From positions 1 through 64,000 of the forward strand of contig JADLFM010000241.1 of the NCBI GenBank assembly GCA_020845495.1: 64,000 nt of DNA. Reading direction: 5' to 3'. Origin of the DNA: Chloroflexota bacterium (GTDB lineage: Bacteria; Chloroflexota; UBA6077; JACCZL01). Each line of letters starts with the position of its first letter. Within the stretch, counting starts at the first letter, position 1. Below the pieces are notes generated by a model. The model saw only the letters and a list, made by a program, of their open reading frames with translations, did not search any database and was not told the origin of the DNA. Below are positions 6,498-52,558 of the stretch, one piece after another. Position numbers and translations under genes: made by a program.

Positions 6498-8870
6498 ATG
6501 ACTCTCCCCAACGAGCCGCTCAATTCTGGCCGTCTGGCTCCCGAGACCACCGACGCGGCGGAGCCGATACCCGCGTATGCCCGCGATGCGGCGATCCTCC
6601 CCTGGTTCGACCGGCTCCTCAAGGGCAAGCCCGACGAGCAGGCGCGGGCACGCACCGAGATCGGTCTGATCCTCCAATCGCGAGGCTACGTTTCGGATGC
6701 CGAAGACGCCTTCTGGGCCAACGTCCAGGCGAGGGCCGTCGATCGCCGTGCCTATGATCGACTACTGGCGATCTACCGTGAGCGACGCGATCGCTTGTCC
6801 GAGTCGCTCGTACGTCGCCAACTCGACGACGTCTTCCCCGCTTCCGTGCCTGGAGAGTCGCCGCCCGTGGTGCAGGCTCCGTCCTGGCGCAGCTTCGGCG
6901 ACGGCACCACGGGCGGCGACCGCACGGCAGACGGGAACAGCGCGGCGGACGGTGACGAGACCGGCCCCGAGAACGGCGTGGAGGGCAGCGCCAGGGGGGA
7001 TGGCAAAGACGTCGGCGGCCGGTCGAGTGCCGCCGATGATGCCAGCGACCGCGGGACCGGCTCCGGAGCGGACCGGTCGCCGCGGTCGTCCGGCCTTGGT
7101 CTGAGCGCGAGCGACGGCCGACCGTTGCCCTTGCTCCCCTGGGAGATCGCTCCTGGGCAGCCACGGCGCTCGGGACGAACCGCGGCGTCGCAGCAGGGCA
7201 TCCGGACGCCAGTATCGTCCTCCTCAGCGCCAGCCGCCTCTCCCGCGCCGCCCCCGACAGGTACCCGTCGAGAGGGTCCGCAGGTGCCCCTGACAACAGC
7301 GCCGCCATCACTGGCAGGCCGCACCTACCAGTCGGTCGCAGCACGCTCAGCGCCGGATGCCGAGCGGGCCGGGATGTCGGACGAGGCATCGGGGACGGCG
7401 TTGGCCTCCGCCTACACACCCATCTCCGAGCGCACTCAGAGCGTCGCCTCAGACCCCGTCCACGGGATCTCCATGGAGCGCAGGCAGAAGAGCGCCGCTC
7501 GAGAACGCAACCCTGAAGCCGTCTCGGGCCAGCCAGCGCAGGCTCCATCCAGCGCCGTACTCTCGCGTCGGCTGTCCGGGCTGGCAAGCCCCATGCCCGA
7601 GGCTCCACCCGCTACCAGGGCGCCAGAAACCTCAGAGCCTGGTGCGATGCAGGCGGATGCGGACGTCTCTCCCCTGCCTCCGACGACTGGCACCCCGATG
7701 CCTGCCGTAACGTCCGCCGTAAAGCCCGCCGTAAAGCCCGCCGTGGCGCCGTTCGACGCCGCGCCGACGAGCCCGCCGTCGCCGACGAGCCCGCCGTCGC
7801 CGATCGCCGTTCCCCCGGCCGGTCTGTCGCCGGCACCCCAGGGCCGGCGCCTCCGTCGATTGCGCGGACAGGCAGGCCGCACGACGGAGTCCGGCCAGAC
7901 GCTCGCCACGCCTGGCCCCGTCGCCGCCGGCCACCCCCCGGGTCCATCGCCGTCTCCGGCTGGTGGCCTTGCCCCGGGAGCAGCTGAGGCCACCGGCGGG
8001 GAGCCAGCTCGTGTGAGAGCGGGGCCTCTCGCACGGCCTTCGTCGGCATCTCGGGGGCCGCGCCCGCTGGCGCCGCTCGCGGCAGGCGAGCGGCAGGAAC
8101 TGACGGGTTTACGCCGCTGGGGCCTCGATCCGTTGATGATCCTGGGCCTGCTGCTGGCGTCGGTCGGACTGGCGGCGCTGATCGCGTTCCTGCTGATCGC
8201 GCAGGGTCGACCCCACCCGGCCGGCGACGCGCCCGCTACCGCCTCTAGTGCACCTACCGTCTCTAGCGCGTCCGCTGCCTCCGGCTCGCCCGCTCCCACC
8301 GCTGCATCAGACATGTCCGGGGCGACGGCCGATACAGCCCGGGCGTCAGCCACTACCGAGGGGCCGGCCGCAGACACCCCCGCGCCTGGCACATCCGAGA
8401 CGACGCCCGTCGCCGATGCGACAGCCACCGGTGCGCCTGCTGTGGCAAGCGCCCTGCCCGCCACCTGCACCGATGGCTCACTGCGGTTCCCAGGCGCGAG
8501 TAACCCGGAGGCCGCCGTTGCCGATGCGTATCGTCAGAACGGCGTCACCATCGGCGCGCCTGGCCAGCCGACCGAGCGCTTCGTCCGCGACACCTCGAAT
8601 CGGGTAGTGGGCGCCTGGATCGTGGTCTCGCTGATGCTCGGACACGCCGGCAAGGCGCCGCCGACCCTGGTCGAGTGGGTAAGCACCACCCCAGACCGCC
8701 CGACGCTGACGAACCTGCTGCTCGCCGGCCGGCGCATGGACGGGGCGATCACGCCGGAGGAGTGGGCGGACATCCAGTCCTGGCCGGCCACGACCTGCGA
8801 GGGCGCCTTCGTCCGGAATCCCCGCAACGCCGCCCTGATCCGCCTCGTCGAGCGTGTCGTGGCCCGCTGA
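6498..8870 (+). CDS. Large disordered single-pass membrane protein of unknown function
   Basis: 790 residues if started at ATG 6498; the frame is open to 6354 and the true start is uncertain because no clear ribosome site is seen. Residues 1-120 form a helical region (AILPWFDRLLKGKPDEQARARTEIGLILQSRGY) resembling tetratricopeptide-like helices. Residues about 120-545 are Pro/Ala/Ser/Gly-rich and probably disordered, with small internal repeats (AVKP twice, SPPSPT twice). One membrane helix lies at about 547-570 (MILGLLLASVGLAALIAFLLIA), then a Ser/Thr/Ala-rich linker and a folded C-terminal domain with two Cys (ATCTDGS and ATTCEGA) that may form an extracytoplasmic disulfide. I do not recognise the family; I infer a cell-envelope sensor or scaffold. 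Confidence 0.7.
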   Translation: MTLPNEPLNSGRLAPETTDAAEPIPAYARDAAILPWFDRLLKGKPDEQARARTEIGLILQSRGYVSDAEDAFWANVQARAVDRRAYDRLLAIYRERRDRLSESLVRRQLDDVFPASVPGESPPVVQAPSWRSFGDGTTGGDRTADGNSAADGDETGPENGVEGSARGDGKDVGGRSSAADDASDRGTGSGADRSPRSSGLGLSASDGRPLPLLPWEIAPGQPRRSGRTAASQQGIRTPVSSSSAPAASPAPPPTGTRREGPQVPLTTAPPSLAGRTYQSVAARSAPDAERAGMSDEASGTALASAYTPISERTQSVASDPVHGISMERRQKSAARERNPEAVSGQPAQAPSSAVLSRRLSGLASPMPEAPPATRAPETSEPGAMQADADVSPLPPTTGTPMPAVTSAVKPAVKPAVAPFDAAPTSPPSPTSPPSPIAVPPAGLSPAPQGRRLRRLRGQAGRTTESGQTLATPGPVAAGHPPGPSPSPAGGLAPGAAEATGGEPARVRAGPLARPSSASRGPRPLAPLAAGERQELTGLRRWGLDPLMILGLLLASVGLAALIAFLLIAQGRPHPAGDAPATASSAPTVSSASAASGSPAPTAASDMSGATADTARASATTEGPAADTPAPGTSETTPVADATATGAPAVASALPATCTDGSLRFPGASNPEAAVADAYRQNGVTIGAPGQPTERFVRDTSNRVVGAWIVVSLMLGHAGKAPPTLVEWVSTTPDRPTLTNLLLAGRRMDGAITPEEWADIQSWPATTCEGAFVRNPRNAALIRLVERVVAR

Positions 8871-37806: not shown

Positions 37807-40692
37807 TCACTGACTCGCGCGGCCCGGGTGTTGAACGCTCGAGTCGCCCGTCCCCGTCGACTCGCCGCCCAGTGAGGTGGCCGCCCGCTTTCGGCCAGTC
37901 GGCACGCCTGCGGGCGTGCCGGAACGCTGACTCGTCGGGGCTTTCGAGTCGGCGCCGTCCGTGCGCTCCCCCTTTGGGCGGGTCGTGCTCGTGCGGAGCG
38001 TGCTCCCACGGGTCGCGCCATTGGCGCGCGCGCGCTTGCTGGTGGCATGCCCCCCTCGCGGCTCCGCCTCGGCCTGCGCCGCACCTTCCGGCAGCGGCTC
38101 GAGCGCGTGCGTCAGAACGTCCTCGGCCGTATCGACGAAGATGACTTCCAGGTCACGCCGTAGCTCCTCTGGCACGTCCTCCAGATCGCGCTCGTTGCGG
38201 CGCGGCAACAGCACCGTCTTGATCCCGGCCCGGTGCGCCGCGAGCACCTTCTCCTTGACGCCGCCGATGGGTAAAACCTTACCGCGCAGCGTCAACTCGC
38301 CGGTCATGGCCAGATCCGAACGGACCGGTCGGCCGCTCGCCAACGACGCCAGCGCCGTCAGGATAGTCACGCCGGCCGATGGGCCGTCCTTCGGGATCGC
38401 GCCGGCCGGTACGTGAATGTGGACGGTGGTGTTCTCGAAGAACTTCCCGTCGAGACCGGCACAGCCGTTGGCCGGCGTCGACGCGGCTGAACTGTCTGGC
38501 GTGCGCGGCCGGTCATGATTCAGGACCGCGAGGTGCGAGCCGTACGCCCGGATGTAGGAGAGGGCCGCCTGCGCGCTCTCGCGCATGACGTCGCCCAGCA
38601 TGCCAGTCAAGATCAGCCGCTCCTGGCCAGGCATACAGGTCGCCTCGACGAACAGCACGTCGCCCCCGACCGGCGTCCAGGCCAGGCCGGTCGCGACGCC
38701 GGGCCGCGCCGTTCGTTCGGCAGCCTCGTCGAAGAAGCGTGGCCGGCCGAGGTAGCGCTGCACATCGCCCTGAGCGATCGTCACCGACGTCGCCGAGCCC
38801 TCGGCGATCTCGCGGGCCACCTTGCGGCAGAGCGCGGCCACCTCGCGGTCGAGGTTTCGGACGCCGGCCTCACGGGTGTACCCTCGGACCACCTCGCGAA
38901 TTGCGCTCGGCTCGATCGTCAACTCGCCCTCGCGCAGGCCATGGGCAGCCAGTTGCTTCGGGATGAGGTAGGTCCGAGCGATCTGGACCTTTTCCTCGTC
39001 GGTGTAGCCGGACAACTGCAACACTTCCATCCGGTCGCGCAGCGGAGCCGGAATCGTATCGAGTGCGTTGGCGGTTGTGACGAAGAGGACTTGCGACAGA
39101 TCGAACCCGACACCGAGGTAATTGTCGACGAAGTTGTAGTTCTGGGCCGGATCGAGCACTTCCAGGAGCGCCGACGACGGATCACCGCGCCAGTCCGCGC
39201 CCACCTTATCGATCTCGTCGAGCATGAAGACTGGGTCGCGGGCATCGGCGCGCTTGATGCCCTGGACGATGCGCCCGGGCATCGCGCCAATATACGTCCG
39301 TCGATGCCCGCGAATCTCAGCTTCGTCGTGGACGCCACCCAGCGAGATGCGCACGAACTTCCGGCCGAGCGCCCGCGCGATCGACTGGCCGAGGCTCGTC
39401 TTGCCGACGCCGGGCGGTCCGACGAAGCACAGAATCGGCTCGCGTGCGACACGGTCGGTGGGGGTCTCGGAGTGAGCGGTCGGGGCGGGCATCTCGGCGG
39501 AGCCGTCCTCGTGGACCTCGGCCACGACTGCCTGGCGCTCCTGACGCAACTTCTTGACCGCCAGGTGCTCCAGTATCCGATCCTTGATCTTCTCCAGGTC
39601 GTAGTGGTCTTCGTCGAGGATTCGGCGCGCCTTGGGCACGTCGATCTCGCCGCCGGTGCAGCGATTCCAGGGGAGCACCGCCATCCAATCGAGGTAGGTC
39701 AGGATGATGCCGTGCTCGGGTGAGGACGGCGGGACGTTGGCGAGCCGTTCGAGCTCGCGGTCAGCCTCGCGGCGTGCCTCGTCGGGCAGGCCAGCCTCCT
39801 CGATGCGCCGGCGTAGCTCACCGATCGGGCTCGTCTCATCCTCCTCGCCAAGCTCCTTGCGAATCGCCCGAAGCTGCTCGCGCAGAAAGTACTCGCGCTG
39901 CGCCTTCGTCATCCGCTCGCGGGTCTCGGACGTGATCTTCTGGCCAAGCTCGCGCACGGCCAGCTCATGCTGAAGCAATTCGACGAGCCGCTGGAGCTTT
40001 GCCCCGACCTGATCCTCTTCGAGCAGTTCCTGACGCACGGTGCCGAGCAGCGGGATCGCCGACGCGACGAGGTAGGCAAGCTGGCGCGGATCGTCGAGCG
40101 CCTCAGCGGCCGGAATCAACTCGTTCGGAAGCTCCTCGATGAGCGGCACCAGCCGGCGGAACAGATCGACGACGGCCCGGCGCAGCGCCTGAGTCTCGAC
40201 GTCGTCACTCGTGGCCTGATCCGGCGCCATCTCGACGCGCGCCTTCAGGTACGGCTCGGTCTGGATGAACTCGGTCAGGCGGATCCGCTCCAGTCCTTGC
40301 AGGACGAGTCGAAGCGTGCCGTCCGGGCTCCGAAGGAGCTGGTGGATGACGCCCGCCGTCCCGACCGAGTAGAGGTGGTCCGGCCCGGCCTGCTCCGGCG
40401 AGTCGGGTCGCTGCGCGACGAGCGCGAGCATCCGGTCGCCGCGCATGACGTCGTCGATGAGTCGAATCGACCGCTCCTGGCCGACGAGGAGCGGGACGAC
40501 GGCAAGGGGGAAGACGACTGTCCCCCCGCGCAGGGGCAGGACCGGCAAGGCGGCGGGGATCGACGGTTCCGTCGCCGGGCCGCTGACCTGCTCGTCCGAG
40601 TCAGTGCCCTGCTGTGCCGCTTCTCGGTCAGTGGTCTCCAGGTCGGTGGTGTCCAGGCTGGTGGTATCCTGAGGTGGGGTCTCGCGCTCCAT
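37807..40692 (-). CDS. lon: ATP-dependent Lon protease
   Basis: 961 residues from ATG 40692 (a GTG at 40701 is possible). Order: acidic/Thr-rich N-terminus, LON substrate-binding domain ([24 protein letters not shown]), coiled coil, AAA+ domain with Walker A GPPGVGKT at 425-432 and Walker [11 protein letters not shown], then the protease domain with catalytic Ser772 (KDGPSAGVT) and Lys815 (GGVKEK). It degrades misfolded and regulatory proteins in the cytosol. The last 90 or so residues after [10 protein letters not shown] form an extra basic, low-complexity tail rich in Arg/Thr/Ser/Gly, absent from typical Lon. It follows hsp20 by 65 nt, forming a heat-stress operon. Confidence 0.97.
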
Positions 40693-40757
40693 GTCGCTCA
40701 CTCTTCGCAGTCCGTTCCGTAGTCGGGGGCGCCGGCGCCAGGCCGACCCGCGCCGGA

Positions 40758-43163: not shown

Positions 43164-43182
43164 GCCACACCTCTGCTGCCAT

Positions 43183-43230
43183 GGGTACGGATACGGGTAC
43201 GGATACGGGTACGGATACGGGTACGGACAC
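43183..43230 (+). repeat. Tandem repeat: 12-bp unit, 4 copies
   Basis: Unit GGGTACGGATAC occurs three times exactly (43183, 43195, 43207) and once with a single change (43219). It lies in the 194-nt gap between the divergent enolase-superfamily gene and marR, 20 nt from the former's start. Inner 6-mer periodicity (GGGTAC / GGATAC) is also visible. Confidence 0.96.
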
Positions 43231-43357
43231 AGCCGAAGTATCGCCTGGGTCCGGGCGCGCGGCAAATGGATTGACCCTCGACGGACGCCAGAACGCGGAA
43301 GTACGATGTGAGCATCAAAATATTCGTGCGTCGAAGCAGTCTGTAAGGGCCGAGATC

Positions 43358-44047: not shown

Positions 44048-45018
44048 GTTCCAAGGCGCCACCCGGCGCGCCGCGTGAGCGCCCGAATCGCTCTCCGGAC
44101 CGAAGCCCAGAGTCGCGGCCAGATACGACGCCACCGCTGGCGCCCTCCTCCCTGAACGGCCCGACGACGGGGCCTCCGCCGGCCGTCACCCCGTCCACGG
44201 GCGCACCGGCCACGAATTCCCCGCCGGCCAGCGCGCCGGCGGCCCCTGGCCGGGCGGCCGTCATCCATGAGACCCGGGCGCCGCGCCGTCGTCGGCGGCG
44301 ACTGCTGCTGCTGATTCCGCTCTTGCTGATCATCGGAGCGGTCGGCGCGGTGGTCGGGTATCGCTACTGGTACGACACCACCTACTTCGTCTCCACGGAT
44401 AACGCCCAGGTAGCCGGTGATCTGGTGCAGGTCGGGTCGTTGAATGCCGGACGGCTCGTCGCGACGAGGCTGGACATCGGAGCGAAGGTCCAGGCCGGGC
44501 AAGAACTGGCGGTCGTGGCGATGCCGCAGCAGGTCGGGAGCACGCCGGCCGGCACAGCTCCCCGGATGGACGTGATCAACACCTCGGATACGCTCGTCTC
44601 GGTGCCGTCCCCCCTGACTGGGATCGTCGCGGCTCGGCTTGCCTACGTTGGTGGGACGGTCGCCGCCGGCCAGCCGATCTACGCACTGGTGGACCCCAAG
44701 AACGTCTGGATCCGCGCGAATATCGAGGAAAGCGTGGCCTGGCGGCTGGAGGCGGGCCAGCCGGTCGAGGTGCACGCCGACGCGCTGGGGCGGACCCTGC
44801 CAGGCCGAGTCGACGCGATCACGCCAGCCAGCGCGGCAACATTCTCGCTGCTGCCATCGTCAAACGTCTCCGGCAACTACACGAAGGTGACTCAGTACGT
44901 GCCGGTCAAGATCGCGGTTGATGCTGGCGATGCGACCCTGCCGCTGGGGACGTCGGTCGAAGTCAAGATTCGGGTCGCCGAGCCCACGTCGAGCTTCCCA
45001 CTCCCATGGCGGCCGTAG
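44044..45018 (+). CDS. emrA: HlyD/EmrA-type membrane fusion protein
   Basis: 324 residues from GTG 44044 that overlaps the marR stop by 4 nt. Residues 1-80 are a Pro/Ser-rich cytoplasmic arm, longer than in E. coli EmrA. One membrane helix at 87-106 (LLLLIPLLLIIGAVGAVVGYRY) follows an Arg cluster. Then the lipoyl/biotinyl half-motifs (STDNAQVAGDLVQVGSLNAGRLVATRLDIGAKVQAGQ and VPSPLTGIVAARLAYVGGTVAAGQP) and a beta barrel. The coiled-coil hairpin is very short, so it may not reach an outer-membrane channel. Works with the downstream EmrB-like pump. Confidence 0.92.
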   Translation: MSSKAPPGAPRERPNRSPDRSPESRPDTTPPLAPSSLNGPTTGPPPAVTPSTGAPATNSPPASAPAAPGRAAVIHETRAPRRRRRRLLLLIPLLLIIGAVGAVVGYRYWYDTTYFVSTDNAQVAGDLVQVGSLNAGRLVATRLDIGAKVQAGQELAVVAMPQQVGSTPAGTAPRMDVINTSDTLVSVPSPLTGIVAARLAYVGGTVAAGQPIYALVDPKNVWIRANIEESVAWRLEAGQPVEVHADALGRTLPGRVDAITPASAATFSLLPSSNVSGNYTKVTQYVPVKIAVDAGDATLPLGTSVEVKIRVAEPTSSFPLPWRP

Positions 45019-46586
45019 CGCATCCCGTCCCCGCCGGGCGGCTGGGCGGACTGGCGTACCACTGGCAGGCGCTGATCGTCATCGTTCTTGGCTCGTTCAT
45101 GGTCGTGCTCGATACCACGATCGTGAACGTGGCGCTGCCGCGCATCATCCAGGTCTTCCAGACCACGGTGACCGAGGGTCAGTTGATCCTGACCGGCTAC
45201 ATGCTGGCGCTGGCGGTCGTGATGCCGGCGACCGGTTACTTCGCGGACACGTACGGCTCGAAGCGCACCTACATGGTGACGATCGCGCTGTTCACGCTCG
45301 GGTCGGCGCTGTGCGGGCTCGCGCCGAACATCGAGGGGCTGATCCTGTTCCGGATCATCCAGGGGCTGGGCGGCGGCATGGTGATGCCGCTGGGGATGAG
45401 CATTCTGTTCCAGGTGGCGCCGCCGAACCAGCGCGGGACGATCATGGGCGTCTTCGGACTGCCGATCCTGGTCGCGCCGGTTATTGGCCCGACGCTCGGC
45501 GGCTACCTGGTCGAGTTTGTGGATTGGCGACCGATCTTTACCCTGAACATCCCGGTCGGCATCGCGGCACTCCTGGCCGGCGCGGCGATCCTCCGCGAGT
45601 CGCCGCGCCGGACCGGTCTGCGCTTCGACAAAGCCGGTTTCCTGCTGTCGGCCATCGCCTTCTCGGCGGCCATGCTCGCGCTGGAAAAGGCGCCCGAGGA
45701 CGGCTGGACCGCACCGCACGTCATTGCACTCTGGTTCGTGGCGGCAGCGGCGCTGCCGGCCTGGATCATCGTCGAGCTCTCGCAGGAGCAGCCGCTGCTC
45801 GACCTCAGCGTGCTGCAAGACCGCACCTACCTCATCGCGACGATCGTGAGCTTCGTGCAGACGATCGCGATGTACTCCTCGTTGCTGCTGCTGCCACTCT
45901 TCCTGCAGAACGTGCGCGGTCTCGGCGCGATGGAGACCGGGTTGCTGCTGATGCCTCAGGCGCTCGCGGCGGCCGTCATGATGCCGATCTCCGGGCGCCT
46001 GCTCGACGCGATCGGCCCGAAATCGGTGGTGATTCCCGGGCTCTTCCTGCTCGCCTACGCCACCTGGCTGCTGACCGACCTGGACCTGGGCACGCCGGAC
46101 AGCACGATCCGGATCATCCTCCTGCTCCGAGGTATGGCCATGGGCCTGATGATGATGCCGACGATGACCGTCTCGATGGACACCATCCCGCCCCACCAGA
46201 TCCCACGCGCCAGCGCCCTCTCGAACGTGATGCGCCAGTTGTTCGGCGCGTTCAGTACCGGCATCTTTGCCAGCATCCTGGTGGAGCGGCAGCAGTTCCA
46301 CTCGGCAATTCTGTCTCAGGCCATCACGCCGACGAATATCGCGGCGGTCGGCACCCTGGAGACCATCCGCTCGGCGATGTTGGAGCAGGGTGCCTCGGCG
46401 GCGTTGGCGCTGGCGGCCGGTCAGGCGGCGCTCGCGCGGCAAGTGGCGCTCGCCGCGAGCGTTCGCGCCTACGACGATTGCTTCTTCCTGGCGACGCTAC
46501 TCGCGCTGGTCGGCGTGGTGCCGGCTCTCTGGCTGAAGCGTGGCAAGCACCACGCCGCCAGCCCGAGCCCGGCGATGCTGGAGTGA
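45006..46586 (+). CDS. emrB: DHA2 family MFS drug exporter (EmrB/QacA type)
   Basis: 526 residues, about 14 membrane helices. Family motifs: ALIVIVLGSFMVVLDTTIVNVALPRI in helix 1, the motif A loop GYFADTYGSKRTYM, motif C-like LPILVAPVIGPTLGGYLVE, and a second-half LPLFLQNVRGLGAMETGLLLMPQALA. Proton-coupled export of hydrophobic toxins with the EmrA-like adaptor. The ATG lies within the last 13 nt of emrA, so the two are coupled. It ends facing a convergent MFS gene with a short tandem repeat between. Confidence 0.95.
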   Translation: MAAVAHPVPAGRLGGLAYHWQALIVIVLGSFMVVLDTTIVNVALPRIIQVFQTTVTEGQLILTGYMLALAVVMPATGYFADTYGSKRTYMVTIALFTLGSALCGLAPNIEGLILFRIIQGLGGGMVMPLGMSILFQVAPPNQRGTIMGVFGLPILVAPVIGPTLGGYLVEFVDWRPIFTLNIPVGIAALLAGAAILRESPRRTGLRFDKAGFLLSAIAFSAAMLALEKAPEDGWTAPHVIALWFVAAAALPAWIIVELSQEQPLLDLSVLQDRTYLIATIVSFVQTIAMYSSLLLLPLFLQNVRGLGAMETGLLLMPQALAAAVMMPISGRLLDAIGPKSVVIPGLFLLAYATWLLTDLDLGTPDSTIRIILLLRGMAMGLMMMPTMTVSMDTIPPHQIPRASALSNVMRQLFGAFSTGIFASILVERQQFHSAILSQAITPTNIAAVGTLETIRSAMLEQGASAALALAAGQAALARQVALAASVRAYDDCFFLATLLALVGVVPALWLKRGKHHAASPSPAMLE

Positions 46587-48001: not shown

Positions 48002-48293
48002 GTGCCTCCCGGCGCTGCGAGAATCTCTCTATCGCACGGCTTGTACCTGGAACGGGCCGCCACATGCCAGCCCGGACTGAGGCCAGCGCAGTCAACCTCG
48101 ACGCGCCCCGAGAGGGGACGGCGCTCACGCACTGAGGTTGGAGCGATTGGGCAGCATCCGGTGTTCCGTCCGAAACACACGCTCTGTCGCACCGGCGGCA
48201 GCCGGGTCGGCCGGGCCGCGCGATGATGATGGTGCGACGCGGGACACAGAGCCCGCCGCCGAGTGGCCAGAGGCCACCAGAAAGGACTCGATC
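48002..48293. promoter_or_regulatory. Divergent promoter region with a candidate operator
   Basis: 292 nt between the MFS gene (minus) and the small repeated peptide gene (plus). An imperfect palindrome GTGTTCCGTCCGAAACAC lies at 48161-48178 and is a candidate regulator site. No -35/-10 pair is assigned with confidence. Confidence 0.4.
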
Positions 48294-48407
48294 ATGTCGG
48301 CAGAGTTCAGCATCCCCCGTGGCCCGGTGTGCTTCCTCCCGCGTGGCCCAGTGTGCTTCCTTCCCCGTGGCCCGGTCTGTTTCCTCCCGCGCGGCCCGGT
48401 CTGCTAA
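48294..48407 (+). CDS. Putative multi-core RiPP precursor (37 aa, four PRGPVC repeats)
   Basis: 37-codon ORF: a 7-residue head MSAEFSI, three copies of PRGPVCFL, and a last PRGPVC ending in a C-terminal Cys before TAA. AAAGGA lies 7 nt before the ATG. Across the four copies six codons vary, every change at the third position and every one synonymous, which is what selection on the peptide predicts. The next gene is a cysteine-decarboxylase-family flavoprotein, whose known peptide substrates end in Cys. There is no Ser or Thr in the repeats, so dehydration as in lanthipeptides is not available; any crosslink would use Cys. An alternative is a Cys-codon leader peptide that regulates the downstream genes. 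I know of no described family with this repeat. Confidence 0.72.
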   Translation: MSAEFSIPRGPVCFLPRGPVCFLPRGPVCFLPRGPVC

Positions 48408-48420
48408 TCAGCGTACCACC

Positions 48421-48477
48421 CGAAGCATCTGCTTCGAGCTCCGGCGGGGTCTCGACCGTTCAGGCCGAGACCCCGCC
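48421..48477 (+). terminator. Two hairpins between peptide gene and decarboxylase gene
   Basis: A 7-bp stem (48421-48427 / 48430-48436) is followed by a perfect 12-bp stem (48443-48454 / 48466-48477) with an 11-nt loop. There is no T-run. In peptide natural product operons such a partial terminator after the precursor gene lowers enzyme expression relative to precursor; in a leader-peptide model it would be the attenuator. Confidence 0.75.
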
Positions 48478-48564
48478 TCGCTTGTACAGCCTCCAGCAGA
48501 AGGCGTCTCGCTCGTGCCGCTGGCACGGACCAGCAGCACAGATCCGCAACGAGGAGGACCGACG

Positions 48565-49215
48565 ATGGCTGACACGTTCACCCCGCCACAGCTCCCGGCC
48601 CGTCACGTCCTGATCGGCGTGGCCGGCTCGATCGCCTCCGTGACCGTGCCGCAGTCGATCCTCTGGCTTCGCCACGAGCTGGGGGTTGACGTTCGCGTCC
48701 TGATGACCCGCCAGGCCGCCACGATGGTCACGCCGCGTGCGCTCGCGGTGGCGTCCGGCGCGCCGGTGGCGCTCGACGAGACGACCGACTACACCGACCC
48801 AGTCGTCCGGCACATGGAGTTGACGCGCTGGGCCGACCTCATGTTGGTCTTGCCAGCCAGCGCGAACCTGCTCGCCAAGGCCGCTCACGGCATCGCCGAT
48901 GACCTGCTGACGACTTGCATCATCGCGTCGTCGTCACCGGTCGTGTTCGTTCCAGGGATGAACGAGGTCATGTGGCGGAAGCCGGCCGTACAGCGCAACG
49001 TCGCCACGCTGGAAGCAGACGGGTACGGCGTCGTGGCCCCGGTCGAGGGGCTGGCAGTCTCCGATGGCCGCCCGACCGTCGGCGCGATGCCCGAGATCGA
49101 CGCCATCATCGCGTGGGTGACGCGCTTTCTCAACGAACGGAACGGTACGGGCACGCTGACGACAGCCGATCTTCTGGCTGCGCCGCCGACGTCACTTCAG
49201 GAGGCCGCACGATGA
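48565..49215 (+). CDS. HFCD-family flavoprotein (peptidyl-cysteine or phosphopantothenoylcysteine decarboxylase-like)
   Basis: 216 residues. Flavodoxin-like FMN enzyme with GVAGSIAS (18-25), catalytic H83 in VVRHMELTRWAD, PASAN (97-101, with Leu after it where Thr is usual), and the substrate clamp PGMNEVMW (130-137). Known family members decarboxylate a C-terminal Cys of peptides (EpiD, MrsD, CypD, TvaF) or phosphopantothenoylcysteine (CoaC). There is no fused CoaB synthetase domain, so it is not a standard bacterial CoaBC. GAGGAGG lies 7 nt before ATG 48565; the open frame to 48223 is not conserved. The neighbour upstream is the Cys-terminated repeat peptide and the next gene overlaps by ATGA. 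Confidence 0.9.
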   Translation: MADTFTPPQLPARHVLIGVAGSIASVTVPQSILWLRHELGVDVRVLMTRQAATMVTPRALAVASGAPVALDETTDYTDPVVRHMELTRWADLMLVLPASANLLAKAAHGIADDLLTTCIIASSSPVVFVPGMNEVMWRKPAVQRNVATLEADGYGVVAPVEGLAVSDGRPTVGAMPEIDAIIAWVTRFLNERNGTGTLTTADLLAAPPTSLQEAAR

Positions 49216-49970
49216 TTCGGATCGCACTCTTTCACCTTGTGGCCGTTACGGCCATGCTCGCCCTGATTCCGCCCCGTTCAACCACCTTGGACGAACTGAG
49301 TCATGCCACAGTCGTCACCGAACGGCGTGCCGACGCGGGCGCATCGCCTTCGCGCGCCGACATGTACCAGTCGGTGCTGAGCTTCGGACCGGGCGCCTGG
49401 ACGATGCTCCACTGGCACAACGGCGGCAGTTACAACACCGTCCTCGCAGGCCAGGTGACCCTCCGCATCGGCGATACCGACCGCACGTTCGGGCCGGGCG
49501 AGGGGTGGACCGACGTACCTGGCGTCCTGCACGTCGCCGGCAATGCCGGGGATGGCGAGGCACGCCTGCTCGCCACGATGGTCGTCGAGCCCGACGTGCC
49601 GCCCGCCACGATGGTGGAGCCGGAGGACCATGCAAGTGCGCCGCCGCCGCCCGAGTATCTCGCGATGACGACGGCGACCGACGATCTGCCGGCCGGGCCA
49701 CTGGACGTCGTTCAGCAGTTCATCGACCTCGACCCGAGCGCTCAGGTCACCCTGCCGGCCGCCACCGGCCCACGCCTGATCGGCGTGGTTGACGGGATGG
49801 TGACCGTGACTGGCGACGGCGTCAGCCAGATGGTGGAGGCCGGCGACGGCTGGTCAGAGACGATGGGCGTCACCTACACCTACGCCACCGGCGACGCGGG
49901 CGCGCGGATCTGCGTGACCACGCTGGTCCCCCGCGACGCGACCGCCGCCGCGCCGGTCGATCGATCGTAG
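49212..49970 (+). CDS. Exported bicupin protein
   Basis: 252 residues. The N-terminus MIRIALFHLVAVTAMLALIPP is a signal peptide or anchor. Two cupin modules follow: residues about 50-115 (FGPGAWTMLHWHNGGSYNTVLAGQVTLRIGD ... GEGWTDVPGVLHVAGN) with H-x-H metal ligands, and about 165-240, which is degenerate and lacks the His pair. The ATG overlaps the decarboxylase stop (ATGA), so the two are translationally coupled, odd for a cytosolic and an exported protein unless both act on one product. Could bind or oxidise an exported thiol (thiol dioxygenases are cupins; inference). Function not known. Confidence 0.82.
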   Translation: MIRIALFHLVAVTAMLALIPPRSTTLDELSHATVVTERRADAGASPSRADMYQSVLSFGPGAWTMLHWHNGGSYNTVLAGQVTLRIGDTDRTFGPGEGWTDVPGVLHVAGNAGDGEARLLATMVVEPDVPPATMVEPEDHASAPPPPEYLAMTTATDDLPAGPLDVVQQFIDLDPSAQVTLPAATGPRLIGVVDGMVTVTGDGVSQMVEAGDGWSETMGVTYTYATGDAGARICVTTLVPRDATAAAPVDRS

Positions 49971-50009
49971 CAGTCGTAACCAGTGGGTGACTTCGAGGGA
50001 GGCGGCATC

Positions 50010-51422
50010 ATGCGGCCCGACGTACGACAGGGGATGTGGGCCTTCGGTTTGATCTGGATCGGTCAGGTCGTCTCGCTCGTCGGCTCCGGCCTGACCGAGT
50101 TCGGCCTTGGGGTCTGGGTGTTCCAGCACACCGGCGCCGCCACAGACTATGCCCTGATTGCCCTCTGCATCAGCCTCCCTCACGTCCTGGTGGCGCCCCT
50201 CGCGGGAACCCTGGTGGACCGCACCGACCGGCGACGGGTCATGCTGCTGAGCGACAGCGCGGCGGCGCTCAGCACCCTGGCGGTCGCGCTGCTGGCCTGG
50301 GGCGGCCGGCTCGAAGTCTGGCACGTCTACGCGGCGGTCCTCGCCACGTCGACCTGCGCCGCCGTGCAGTACCCGGCCTACGCCGCGCTGGTCATGCAAC
50401 TGGTCCCAAAGGAGCACCTCGGGCGCGCGAACGGCCTGGTCGAGCTGGCGTGGTCGGCGAGTCTGATCGTAGCTCCGCTCGCCGCGGCGGCCTTGATCGC
50501 CGTGGTCGGGCTGCCCGGCGTCCTGATGGTGGACCTGCTGACCTTCGGAGTCGGATTCGGCACCCTGCTCCTGGCGCGTGTCCCGTCACACGCCCCGGAA
50601 CGGATCGCCGAGCCAGATGCGATGCCCGATGCGACCCCCTTCGGCGTCCGGGTGCGCGCCGGCTGGGCCTACATCGCAGCGCGCCCCGGCCTCGCCGGCC
50701 TGCTCGTCTTCTCGGCGGTGATGAGCCTCAGCGCTGGGACGTTCAACGCGCTCTTCGCACCAATGATCCTCAGCACCGAGCCCGCGTCCGTGCTCGGCGG
50801 GCTGGCGTCGCTCGGCGGCTGTGGCATGCTGACCGGCGGTCTCCTCCTAGCAGCCTGGGGCGGCCCGCGTCGCCGCATCGTAGGCGTCATCGGCACGAGC
50901 CTGCTGTTTTCCCTGGCCCTGGTCGTCATCGGCGCGCACCCCTCCTGGCTCGCGCTGGCGGTGGCCGTGGTCCTCTACTTTGGCTGCCAGCCGGTCCTCA
51001 ACGGTTGCGAGCAAACGCTCTGGCAGAGCGCGGTACCAGATCATCTCCTCGGGCGGGTCCTGTCGGCGCGGCGGGCCGTCGAGCACGGAGTGGCGACGCT
51101 CGCCTATCTCGGAGCCGGACCGCTGGCGGATCGACTCGTCGAGCCGTTGCTCGCTCCCGGTGGGGTACTTGCGCCGACGGTCGGCGCGATTATCGGGGTC
51201 GGCGCAGGGCGTGGCATCGGCTTGATGCTCGTGGTGATGGGCCTCGTCGCGCTGCTGACCACCATCGCGAGCGGTCTGTCGGCCCGCCTCCGGGTCGAGG
51301 ACGGACTACCAGACGTTGACGGGCACGCCGGCAACGACGGGCAGACCGGCAACGACAGGCAGACCGGCAACCGCGTGGCGGGCTCGAAGCCTTCGGCCCC
51401 CGCGTTGGAGCCAGCCGCGTAG
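50010..51422 (+). CDS. MFS transporter (MFS_3 type), candidate exporter of the peptide cluster
   Basis: 470 residues, about 12 helices: MWAFGLIWIGQVVSLVGSGLTEFGLGVWVFQHTGAATDYALIALC, loop LVDRTDRRRVMLLSD, and a long mid-loop. ATG 50010 has GAGGGAGG 7 nt upstream; a GTG at 49983 is less likely. Members of this family export siderophores, macrolides and peptides. It starts 39 nt after the bicupin gene and is probably in the same operon. The C-terminal tail (GNDGQTGNDRQTGN) is a short repeated hydrophilic stretch. Confidence 0.9.
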   Translation: MRPDVRQGMWAFGLIWIGQVVSLVGSGLTEFGLGVWVFQHTGAATDYALIALCISLPHVLVAPLAGTLVDRTDRRRVMLLSDSAAALSTLAVALLAWGGRLEVWHVYAAVLATSTCAAVQYPAYAALVMQLVPKEHLGRANGLVELAWSASLIVAPLAAAALIAVVGLPGVLMVDLLTFGVGFGTLLLARVPSHAPERIAEPDAMPDATPFGVRVRAGWAYIAARPGLAGLLVFSAVMSLSAGTFNALFAPMILSTEPASVLGGLASLGGCGMLTGGLLLAAWGGPRRRIVGVIGTSLLFSLALVVIGAHPSWLALAVAVVLYFGCQPVLNGCEQTLWQSAVPDHLLGRVLSARRAVEHGVATLAYLGAGPLADRLVEPLLAPGGVLAPTVGAIIGVGAGRGIGLMLVVMGLVALLTTIASGLSARLRVEDGLPDVDGHAGNDGQTGNDRQTGNRVAGSKPSAPALEPAA

Positions 51423-51521: not shown

Positions 51522-51625
51522 TTGGGAGTGGGGGCTGTCAGCCAGATGCCGCGTTCACCGAGAACGGTGCCCTCGGCAAGGTCGAGGGAAGCTTCAGGTG
51601 AACGAGTCAGGGAGTGTTGCAGGCC

Positions 51626-52558
51626 ATGAATCTGGCGAGGACGAGAGCTCAGCTACCCCGGCAGGTCGATCTGCTGATCGTGTGCCCCCATCCCGACGAC
51701 GAGAGCGTCACGACGGGTGCGCTGATCGCCCGCTACGCGGCGCGCGGCATCCGTACAGCCGTCGTGATGTGTACCCAGGGTGAGGAAGGCGAGATCGTCA
51801 CGCCGGGTGCGGACGTGGCTACGCTGCGCCCGCATCTGGGGACCGTGCGCGCCGCCGAGCTTCGCGCGGCCTGCCGAACACTCGGCGTAACCTGTCTACG
51901 AACGCTCGGCTACCGGGACTCCGGCATGGCCAGGACGCCGTCGACCCTCCGGCCAGACGCTTTCTGCAACGCCGATCTGGACGAAGCGACGGGCCGGCTC
52001 GTCCAGGTCGTCCGGGCACTTCGGCCAACCGTCGTCGTGACAGAGAGCGCGTGGGCCACCTACGGGCATCCCGATCACGTCATGGCGCGCACGATCGCGC
52101 TTCGGGCCTTCGCGGCGGCCGGCGACGAACGCGCGTTCCCGGATGCTGGTCTGCCCTGGCGCCCGGCGCGCCTCTACGCAATGCATCCGACCGCCGACCG
52201 CTGGAGCGTCCACGCGCGTTGGGATGACCTGGTCACCCAGATGCGCGCCGAAGCGCAAGGCGCATCCTTTCTGACGCGCTGGTCGCTCGATCGGTTCGGC
52301 GAGGAGCGAGTCACAACCCAGATCGACGTCAGCGCATACGTCCACGTCCAGCGCGCCGCGATCGCCTGCCACCGCAGCCAGTTTCCGTCAGGAAGCTGGT
52401 GGCTCACGATGCCCGCTATCGCTCGCCGGATCGCCCTCGGCACGGCTCGGCTGACCCGGCTGCACCCGTCCCCTACGGCGGGCGATCGAGATTGGGAACT
52501 GTTTCCGGGCCGGTACTCGGTCGCGGGCGACGACCGCTGGCGCGCACAGTCGGCATGA
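51626..52558 (+). CDS. PIG-L family (LmbE/MshB-like) deacetylase
   Basis: 310 residues from ATG 51626 (GTG 51614 possible). Zinc site PHPDDE (21-26) and HPDH further on (YGHPDHVMA) define the family of metal-dependent N-acetylglucosamine deacetylases, including MshB (mycothiol), BshB (bacillithiol) and antibiotic-tailoring enzymes. The GEEGEIVTPGADV loop and TLRTLGYRDSGM are typical of MshB/Mca-like members. A thiol-cofactor role would fit the CGYC glutaredoxin at 18929, but no MshA/MshC is here. It may or may not belong with the peptide cluster upstream (203-nt gap). Confidence 0.9.
   Translation: MNLARTRAQLPRQVDLLIVCPHPDDESVTTGALIARYAARGIRTAVVMCTQGEEGEIVTPGADVATLRPHLGTVRAAELRAACRTLGVTCLRTLGYRDSGMARTPSTLRPDAFCNADLDEATGRLVQVVRALRPTVVVTESAWATYGHPDHVMARTIALRAFAAAGDERAFPDAGLPWRPARLYAMHPTADRWSVHARWDDLVTQMRAEAQGASFLTRWSLDRFGEERVTTQIDVSAYVHVQRAAIACHRSQFPSGSWWLTMPAIARRIALGTARLTRLHPSPTAGDRDWELFPGRYSVAGDDRWRAQSA

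Follow-up and report, generated by a model that had tools for sequence, protein, structure and literature searches.

Homo-oligomeric flavin-containing cysteine decarboxylases (HFCDs) of the LanD type (EpiD, MrsD, CypD, RosD, KinI, TvaF) are encoded beside short peptides that end in Cys and work together with Ser/Thr dehydratases, kinase-fold partners or similar enzymes. According to the accessible part of PMC12291118, RosD by itself makes an enethiol from the Cys at the C-terminus of RosA1, and such peptide enethiols are unstable, being hydrolysed unless they are trapped or protected. In the cases described in the available portion of PMC11162475, dehydroalanine (Dha) or dehydrobutyrine (Dhb) traps the enethiol, or a radical SAM enzyme takes part and aminovinyl-carbamoylcysteine (AviCamCys) results. 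Here we analyse a 64,000-nucleotide stretch of a Chloroflexota bacterium (contig JADLFM010000241.1, positions 1 to 64,000; hereafter the window), in which a 37-residue peptide built of PRGPVC repeats is followed by an HFCD flavoprotein, a bicupin and a transporter of the major facilitator superfamily (MFS). We consider it likely, with a probability of roughly 0.7, that the C-terminal Cys of this peptide is oxidatively decarboxylated by the adjoining flavoprotein and that the product is exported by the MFS transporter. Judged from its sequence, the locus likely encodes an HFCD-modified ribosomal peptide, and it is a well-founded candidate for a new class of ribosomally synthesized and post-translationally modified peptides (RiPPs).

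The locus resembles the LanD-type systems in its homologous flavoprotein with the same motifs and in the short Cys-ended peptide beside it, but differs in that no such partner enzyme was found and that the repeats contain neither Ser nor Thr. Indeed, a Pfam scan of 26 window open reading frames (ORFs; 29997-63355, cluster included) gave no radical SAM, YcaO, LanM/LANC or kinase domain, which bears out an earlier model-made annotation (the sequence-only reading) that had inferred a cluster with no lanthionine synthetase, YcaO or radical SAM enzyme. Dehydratase, kinase-fold cyclase and lyase domains were equally absent from the gene set and from these 26 ORFs. The lack of Ser and Thr, likewise noted earlier, holds for the PRGPVC units and for the FL/FI linkers between them; the repeats are also free of Asn, and Cys is the sole possible Dha source within them. 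In the pathways described in the literature consulted, a dehydroamino acid or radical SAM chemistry traps the HFCD enethiol; at this locus the trap residues are absent from the repeats and no trap enzyme was found, but the gene set is kept together.

Published flavoprotein mining applied a T/S-Xn-C rule to actinobacteria and firmicutes (PMC11162475, available portion), and the window set lies outside it because of this rule and of the restriction to two other phyla. The PRGPVC peptide has no Ser/Thr two to six residues before its C-terminal Cys, the feature which the same portion of that paper gives for aminovinyl-cysteine (AviCys) and aminovinyl-methylcysteine (AviMeCys) precursors. In the open-access subset of the literature we found no description of the PRGPVC peptide and no paper on RiPPs with a cupin or thiol dioxygenase. 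The HFCD enzyme family and its chemistry are already known; what is new lies in the substrate, the partner and the missing trap.

A repeat peptide under protein-level selection

The likely precursor peptide gene (48294-48407, + strand) reads MSAEFSI-(PRGPVCFL)x3-PRGPVC, then stop, and has an AAAGGA 7 nt ahead of its ATG. Its PRGPVC units start at 48315, 48339, 48363 and 48387; with these four units, and five in its counterpart in the Chloroflexota genome G071, the gene has the several near-identical core units of a multi-core precursor. The four 18-base unit cores of the window show five variable sites, all of them third codon positions. Counted at codon positions 1, 2 and 3, the variable sites number 0, 0 and 5 in the four units of the window, 0, 0 and 6 in the five of G071, and 0, 0 and 6 in all nine. 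Under a star model in which the units are treated as independent, the chance that the same differences, if random, would all be silent is about 1e-4 for the window, 7e-5 for G071 and 1e-8 for the nine units. As every nucleotide difference among the nine units is a silent third-base change, this shows that the ORF is a real gene kept under protein-level selection. Exact tandem amino acid units (at least three) occur in 19 ORFs across the 1.28 Mb of the window and the loci, among them the window peptide, its G071 counterpart twice (loci L095 and L112 are one place) and two more in the window; several of the other repeat ORFs trace to a single DNA repeat readable in more than one frame, or to masked stretches. 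The silent divergence among its units sets the PRGPVC peptide apart from them.

G071 has these four genes as well, in unchanged order (locus L112). The peptide gene (L112:6306-6443) encodes MFAESGA-(PRGPVCFI)x4-PRGPVC, that is five exact units, and is accompanied by an HFCD 78% identical to that of the window (L112:6599-7306), a bicupin that ends at 8052 (59%, 146/248) and, in the same place, an MFS transporter (L112:8077-9492; 68%, 312/456). Between the two peptides the linker is altered from FL to FI and the leader from MSAEFSI to MFAESGA; PRGPVC is unaltered. A ribosomal precursor gene and, beside it, the gene of a presumed modifying enzyme are conserved together in two genomes, as expected of a RiPP locus. 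Coordinates and Pfam thus confirm the arrangement that the sequence-only reading had described, namely a Cys-ended 37-residue ORF of four PRGPVC units followed on the same strand by an HFCD, a bicupin overlapping it by ATGA and an MFS transporter. Its proposal of a dedicated HFCD-peptide gene set is strengthened by the same four genes in G071 and by the silent-only codon changes, and the HFCD search of Chloroflexota genomes led to the five units of G071. Two objections that it had raised against itself do not apply in G071: the related HFCD there does have a Cys-ended peptide beside it, and it is not the only phosphopantothenoylcysteine decarboxylase of the cell, since contig C92 carries a separate CoaBC, in which PAMDADMY takes the place of PxMNxxMW. 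A PIG-L/MshB-like gene follows the MFS gene in the window and none does in L112, so that the conserved unit consists of the peptide, HFCD, bicupin and MFS genes.

The four-gene set is patchily distributed. The HFCD search covered 400 genomes from the phylum to which G001, a Ktedonobacteraceae record, belongs, and gave three matches at E<=1e-35, in G071 (78%), G001 (45%) and G008 (44%); we take this phylum to be Chloroflexota. Within the class of G071 (29 genomes) only G071 itself had an HFCD match at E<=1e-30, and within its order (16 genomes) the remaining matches were at E 5e-25 or weaker and were long CoaBC-type frames. Over all the sets, which overlap, genomes with a match at the set limit numbered 3/400, 1/29, 0/110, 1/396, 0/1, 0/3, 1/2 and 0/7. 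The window peptide itself found one match in G071 (2.5e-16, the next at 0.2) and, at <=0.001, matches in 5/400 genomes of the phylum: G071 and, weakly, G104, G140, G040 and G239 (3e-5 to 7.7e-4; best E per genome 3e-5 to 2.6e-4). These weak matches (loci L126-L132) turned out to be other Cys- or Pro-rich repeats without a PRGPVC array; L129, with one RRGPVC and one NSPVC, lies in a frame whose end is not Cys. Viral contigs gave no match to the peptide pattern and no HFCD relative; in plasmids the peptide matched twice, weakly, at E 0.7 and 0.8.

The flavoprotein, its relatives and the bicupin

The HFCD gene (48565-49215, + strand) encodes 216 residues (Pfam Flavoprotein, 3.8e-30), likely a peptidyl-cysteine decarboxylase as judged from its motifs. 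It carries the His83, PASAN and PGMNEVMW reported earlier, and hence the domain, active-site His and PxMNxxMW that characterise HFCDs; across 60 aligned sequences H83, P97, M132, N133, M136 and W137 do not vary. At E<=1e-10 it has 961 relatives, and among the best 120 of these 961 the first 27 are 70-93% identical. Solved-structure matches are 7cfu (3.8e-41), which carries no name beyond "DNA/pantothenate metabolism flavoprotein", MrsD (2.2e-25), EpiD (4e-14) and CypD (9.4e-6), and also AtHAL3a and CoaBC. No NCBIfam cut-off is reached: the CoaBC model TIGR00521 gives 158.4 bits against a cut-off of 219.7 and is covered at profile positions 3-181 of 392, and the CypD family NF033753 gives 35.4 bits against 215. 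CoaBC belongs to the same flavoprotein superfamily but differs by its CoaB domain, which the window protein lacks, by PAMDADMY in place of PGMNEVMW and by its separate clade. A maximum likelihood tree built from a choice of 51 rows supports the window family at 100/96 (9 rows, of which two are identical), CoaBC at 100/98 (13 rows) and five radical SAM-linked HFCDs at 90/81, and it sets the window clade apart from both other groups. In CoaBC of G071 and eight more genomes of its order we found PAMDA.M[YF] and SGLxGxGRL, a motif expression that 6/15 CoaBC-type loci do not match. These nine proteins (L097, L098, L105-L111) of one Chloroflexota order have Asp (PAMDA) where other aligned flavoproteins have Asn or His.

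The surroundings of related HFCDs were read by eye for the best HFCD of each of nine genomes, at distances of <=5.7 kb and with peptides of varying size; a Cys-ended polypeptide lay near the HFCD in 9/9, the PRGPVC peptide of G071 included. Second-rank matches in G002 and G004 are outside this reading. The closest HFCD found in a named isolate, 51% identical, is that of Catellatospora (L122), which like the window has a Cys-ended precursor, in this case a precursor-like 60-residue ORF ending MCCHCVC 5.7 kb upstream. It differs in having its own LanM (DUF4135, LANC_like), a C39-peptidase ABC transporter and Ser/Thr in the precursor; it has no repeats, and no bicupin was seen. In five clusters from Chloroflexota, Firmicutes and Actinobacteria (L113, L116, L117, L118, L119) an HFCD and a radical SAM enzyme occur together, next to a short peptide that ends in NFATGC (Ktedonobacteraceae G001), NYGC (Catenulispora), GCNNCWC (Tumebacillus), NGNCGIC (Actinoplanes) or PVNGIC (Kitasatospora), and in the G001 cluster (L113) an MFS transporter follows the HFCD. 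They differ from the window set by the radical SAM enzyme, which was not found among the 26 scanned ORFs of the window, by their Asn-bearing peptides (in 3/5 with Asn <=5 residues from the last Cys) and by their separate clade; they are possibly of the AviCamCys type, an assignment that derives from one sentence in the accessible part of PMC11162475. In G008 (L114:2179-6797) the genes run from an ArsR-type regulator, ArsD and ArsA to a pair of YlbF-like proteins, with the endings GPGCC and GPGSC, and then to the HFCD; this is an arsenic-type operon that might modify whole proteins at their C-terminal Cys. G787 (L121:80-1764) offers a further candidate for a protein substrate that ends in Cys: there the HFCD directly follows two SnoaL-like proteins, of which the nearer ends in IFAC.

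The bicupin (49212-49970, + strand; 252 residues, Cupin_2 1.1e-12) has its ATG inside the closing ATGA of the HFCD gene and is predicted to be exported from an N-terminus that is hydrophobic by eye. A search of 5.8 billion proteins puts its small family at 20 members (E<=1e-5), counting the window protein itself. Eight of the 19 others lie on contigs equal in printed length and source to those of HFCD matches (2846, 2298, 2938, 1868, 93191, 2101, 2553 and 107057), compared with a mean of 0.4 and a maximum of 5 matches in 20,000 control trials with lengths shifted by <=10%; the bicupin therefore goes with the window HFCD subclade. In the first barrel H69 and H107 are invariant among the 20 members and H67 is nearly so; a comparable His set was not seen in the second barrel. 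The structure model is a two-barrel cupin (mean pLDDT 87.4, pTM 0.81), and beside the three conserved His the fold searches gave generic cupin matches, none specific to thiol dioxygenases.

Proposed maturation and its alternatives

Position, conservation and enzyme family make the peptide the likely HFCD substrate. The flavoprotein would turn its C-terminal Cys into a predicted aminoenethiol, with an expected loss of 46 Da, and the MFS transporter would afterwards export the product. A location outside the cytoplasm and a three-His site are predicted for the bicupin, which could act on or shield the sulphur end; together with the MFS transporter, this predicted location points to an exported product. 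With less certainty, a host protease might cut the multi-core precursor after each Cys, so that every FLPRGPVC unit would become a substrate; the strict FLPRGPVC register, in which each unit closes with Cys and the last is followed at once by the stop codon, would suit this. Since the repeats lack Ser, Thr and Asn, what remains is a Cys-derived Dha, as it occurs in cypemycin, or no ring at all. Taken to its full extent, the proposal is tentative, and we regard it as possible but rather improbable as a whole: in such a new RiPP class the HFCD would be the sole primary modifying enzyme, the units, cut after each Cys, would stay linear and bear an aminoenethiol at the C-terminus, and once the MFS transporter had exported them the dedicated three-His bicupin would oxidise or shield this end, giving a secreted, ringless, sulphur-ended peptide, perhaps a metal ligand.

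Several observations weigh against decarboxylation of the peptide. The peptide was seen in just two genomes, no protease belongs to the four-gene set, and the HFCD scores better on the coaBC model than on CypD (158.4 versus 35.4 bits), both below cut-off. In addition, a mechanical count over 80 loci among the genome-scan matches listed found a Cys-ended ORF with a ribosome site <=1.5 kb upstream of 5/24 standalone and 6/56 fused flavoproteins, where many of the 24 are probably ordinary CoaC and one (L022) is a frame artefact of 2 codons. Finally, the HFCD KinI is inactive without its partner KinH (PMC9415263, accessible part), and no KinH-like partner was seen at the window gene set.

The ring precedent of cypemycin, in which a Cys-derived Dha does the trapping, suggests a different fate for the enethiol, namely capture by such a Dha elsewhere in the repeats to give AviCys-like rings between units. 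Cys is indeed the only residue from which the repeats could supply Dha, and the instability of enethiols that are neither trapped nor protected (PMC12291118, accessible part) would favour ring formation. We nevertheless find it unlikely, as neither the gene set nor the 26 scanned ORFs hold a dehydratase, kinase-fold cyclase or lyase domain, and the Cys spacing of eight would mean rings larger than those of any AviCys peptide known to us.

That the flavoprotein acts instead on a small molecule such as phosphopantothenoylcysteine, while the Cys peptide serves independently in metal or thiol handling and does no more than share the operon, appears quite unlikely. It would agree with coaBC as the best curated model (158 bits, cut-off 219.7) and with the likeness of the next window gene to mycothiol deacetylases, but the protein has no CoaB domain, its PxM[N/D] motif and clade differ, and G071 has its separate CoaBC. 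Moreover, the MshB-like gene does not adjoin the set in L112, and related HFCDs stand beside Cys-ended peptides.

If decarboxylation of the PRGPVC peptide is true, the locus would reveal the fate of an untrapped peptide enethiol in the cell, bring repeat precursors and the Chloroflexota into HFCD chemistry, and point to clusters missed by the published T/S-Xn-C rule. A direct test in E. coli is feasible, as it takes just one peptide and one enzyme.

Intergenic hairpins, transporter and flanking genes

A conserved untranslated stretch with long identity runs between the window and L112 lies ahead of the peptide gene (48220-48271, + strand). Between the peptide and HFCD genes (48421-48477, + strand), a small hairpin (48421-48436) is followed by a strong 12-pair hairpin (48443-48477) without a T-run. 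RNA folding gives a z of -5.0 for the window hairpin and -3.8 for a comparably strong one in L112; no intrinsic terminator was found by consensus. Rfam returned no family at gathering score in the upstream region of the window set or of the L112 set, which speaks against a riboswitch in either place. In many RiPP operons the peptide is expressed above the enzyme, and the presence of the hairpin in both genomes would suit such an excess of peptide.

Cysteine attenuator leaders are defined by clustered Cys codons, which alone are kept, and by a terminator. That the short ORF is such a regulatory leader peptide, in which stalling for lack of Cys (or Arg/Pro) would control the hairpin before the flavoprotein gene, is suggested by the even spacing of its Cys codons and by the strong hairpin that lies just downstream in both genomes, but this is very unlikely. 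We set it aside because conservation in each unit extends to all six residues and is not confined to Cys. In addition, the unit number varies from 4 to 5, the Cys codons lie eight apart and unclustered, and neither a T-run terminator nor an Rfam leader family was found; the PRGPVC ORF lacks the marks of these leaders.

The MFS transporter gene (50010-51422, + strand; 470 residues, MFS_1 3.1e-28) encodes the likely product exporter, as its family suggests. An 18-base tandem repeat in three copies (51318-51371) lies in the C-terminal tail of this transporter. The PIG-L gene that adjoins the cluster (51614-52558) resembles the mycothiol deacetylase MshB and the amidase Mca, below both cut-offs. 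A Lon protease of housekeeping type is encoded at 37807-40701, with no link to the peptide shown. The sole CxxxCxxC in the six frames of the window, at 45871, falls in a frame overlapping another MFS gene (45006-46586). Finally, a short tandem repeat at about 43181-43260, which reads GTDTGTDTGTDT on the + strand and YPYPYPYP on the - strand, is found where two overlapping ORFs begin, one belonging to a MarR-type and the other to a mandelate racemase-type gene.

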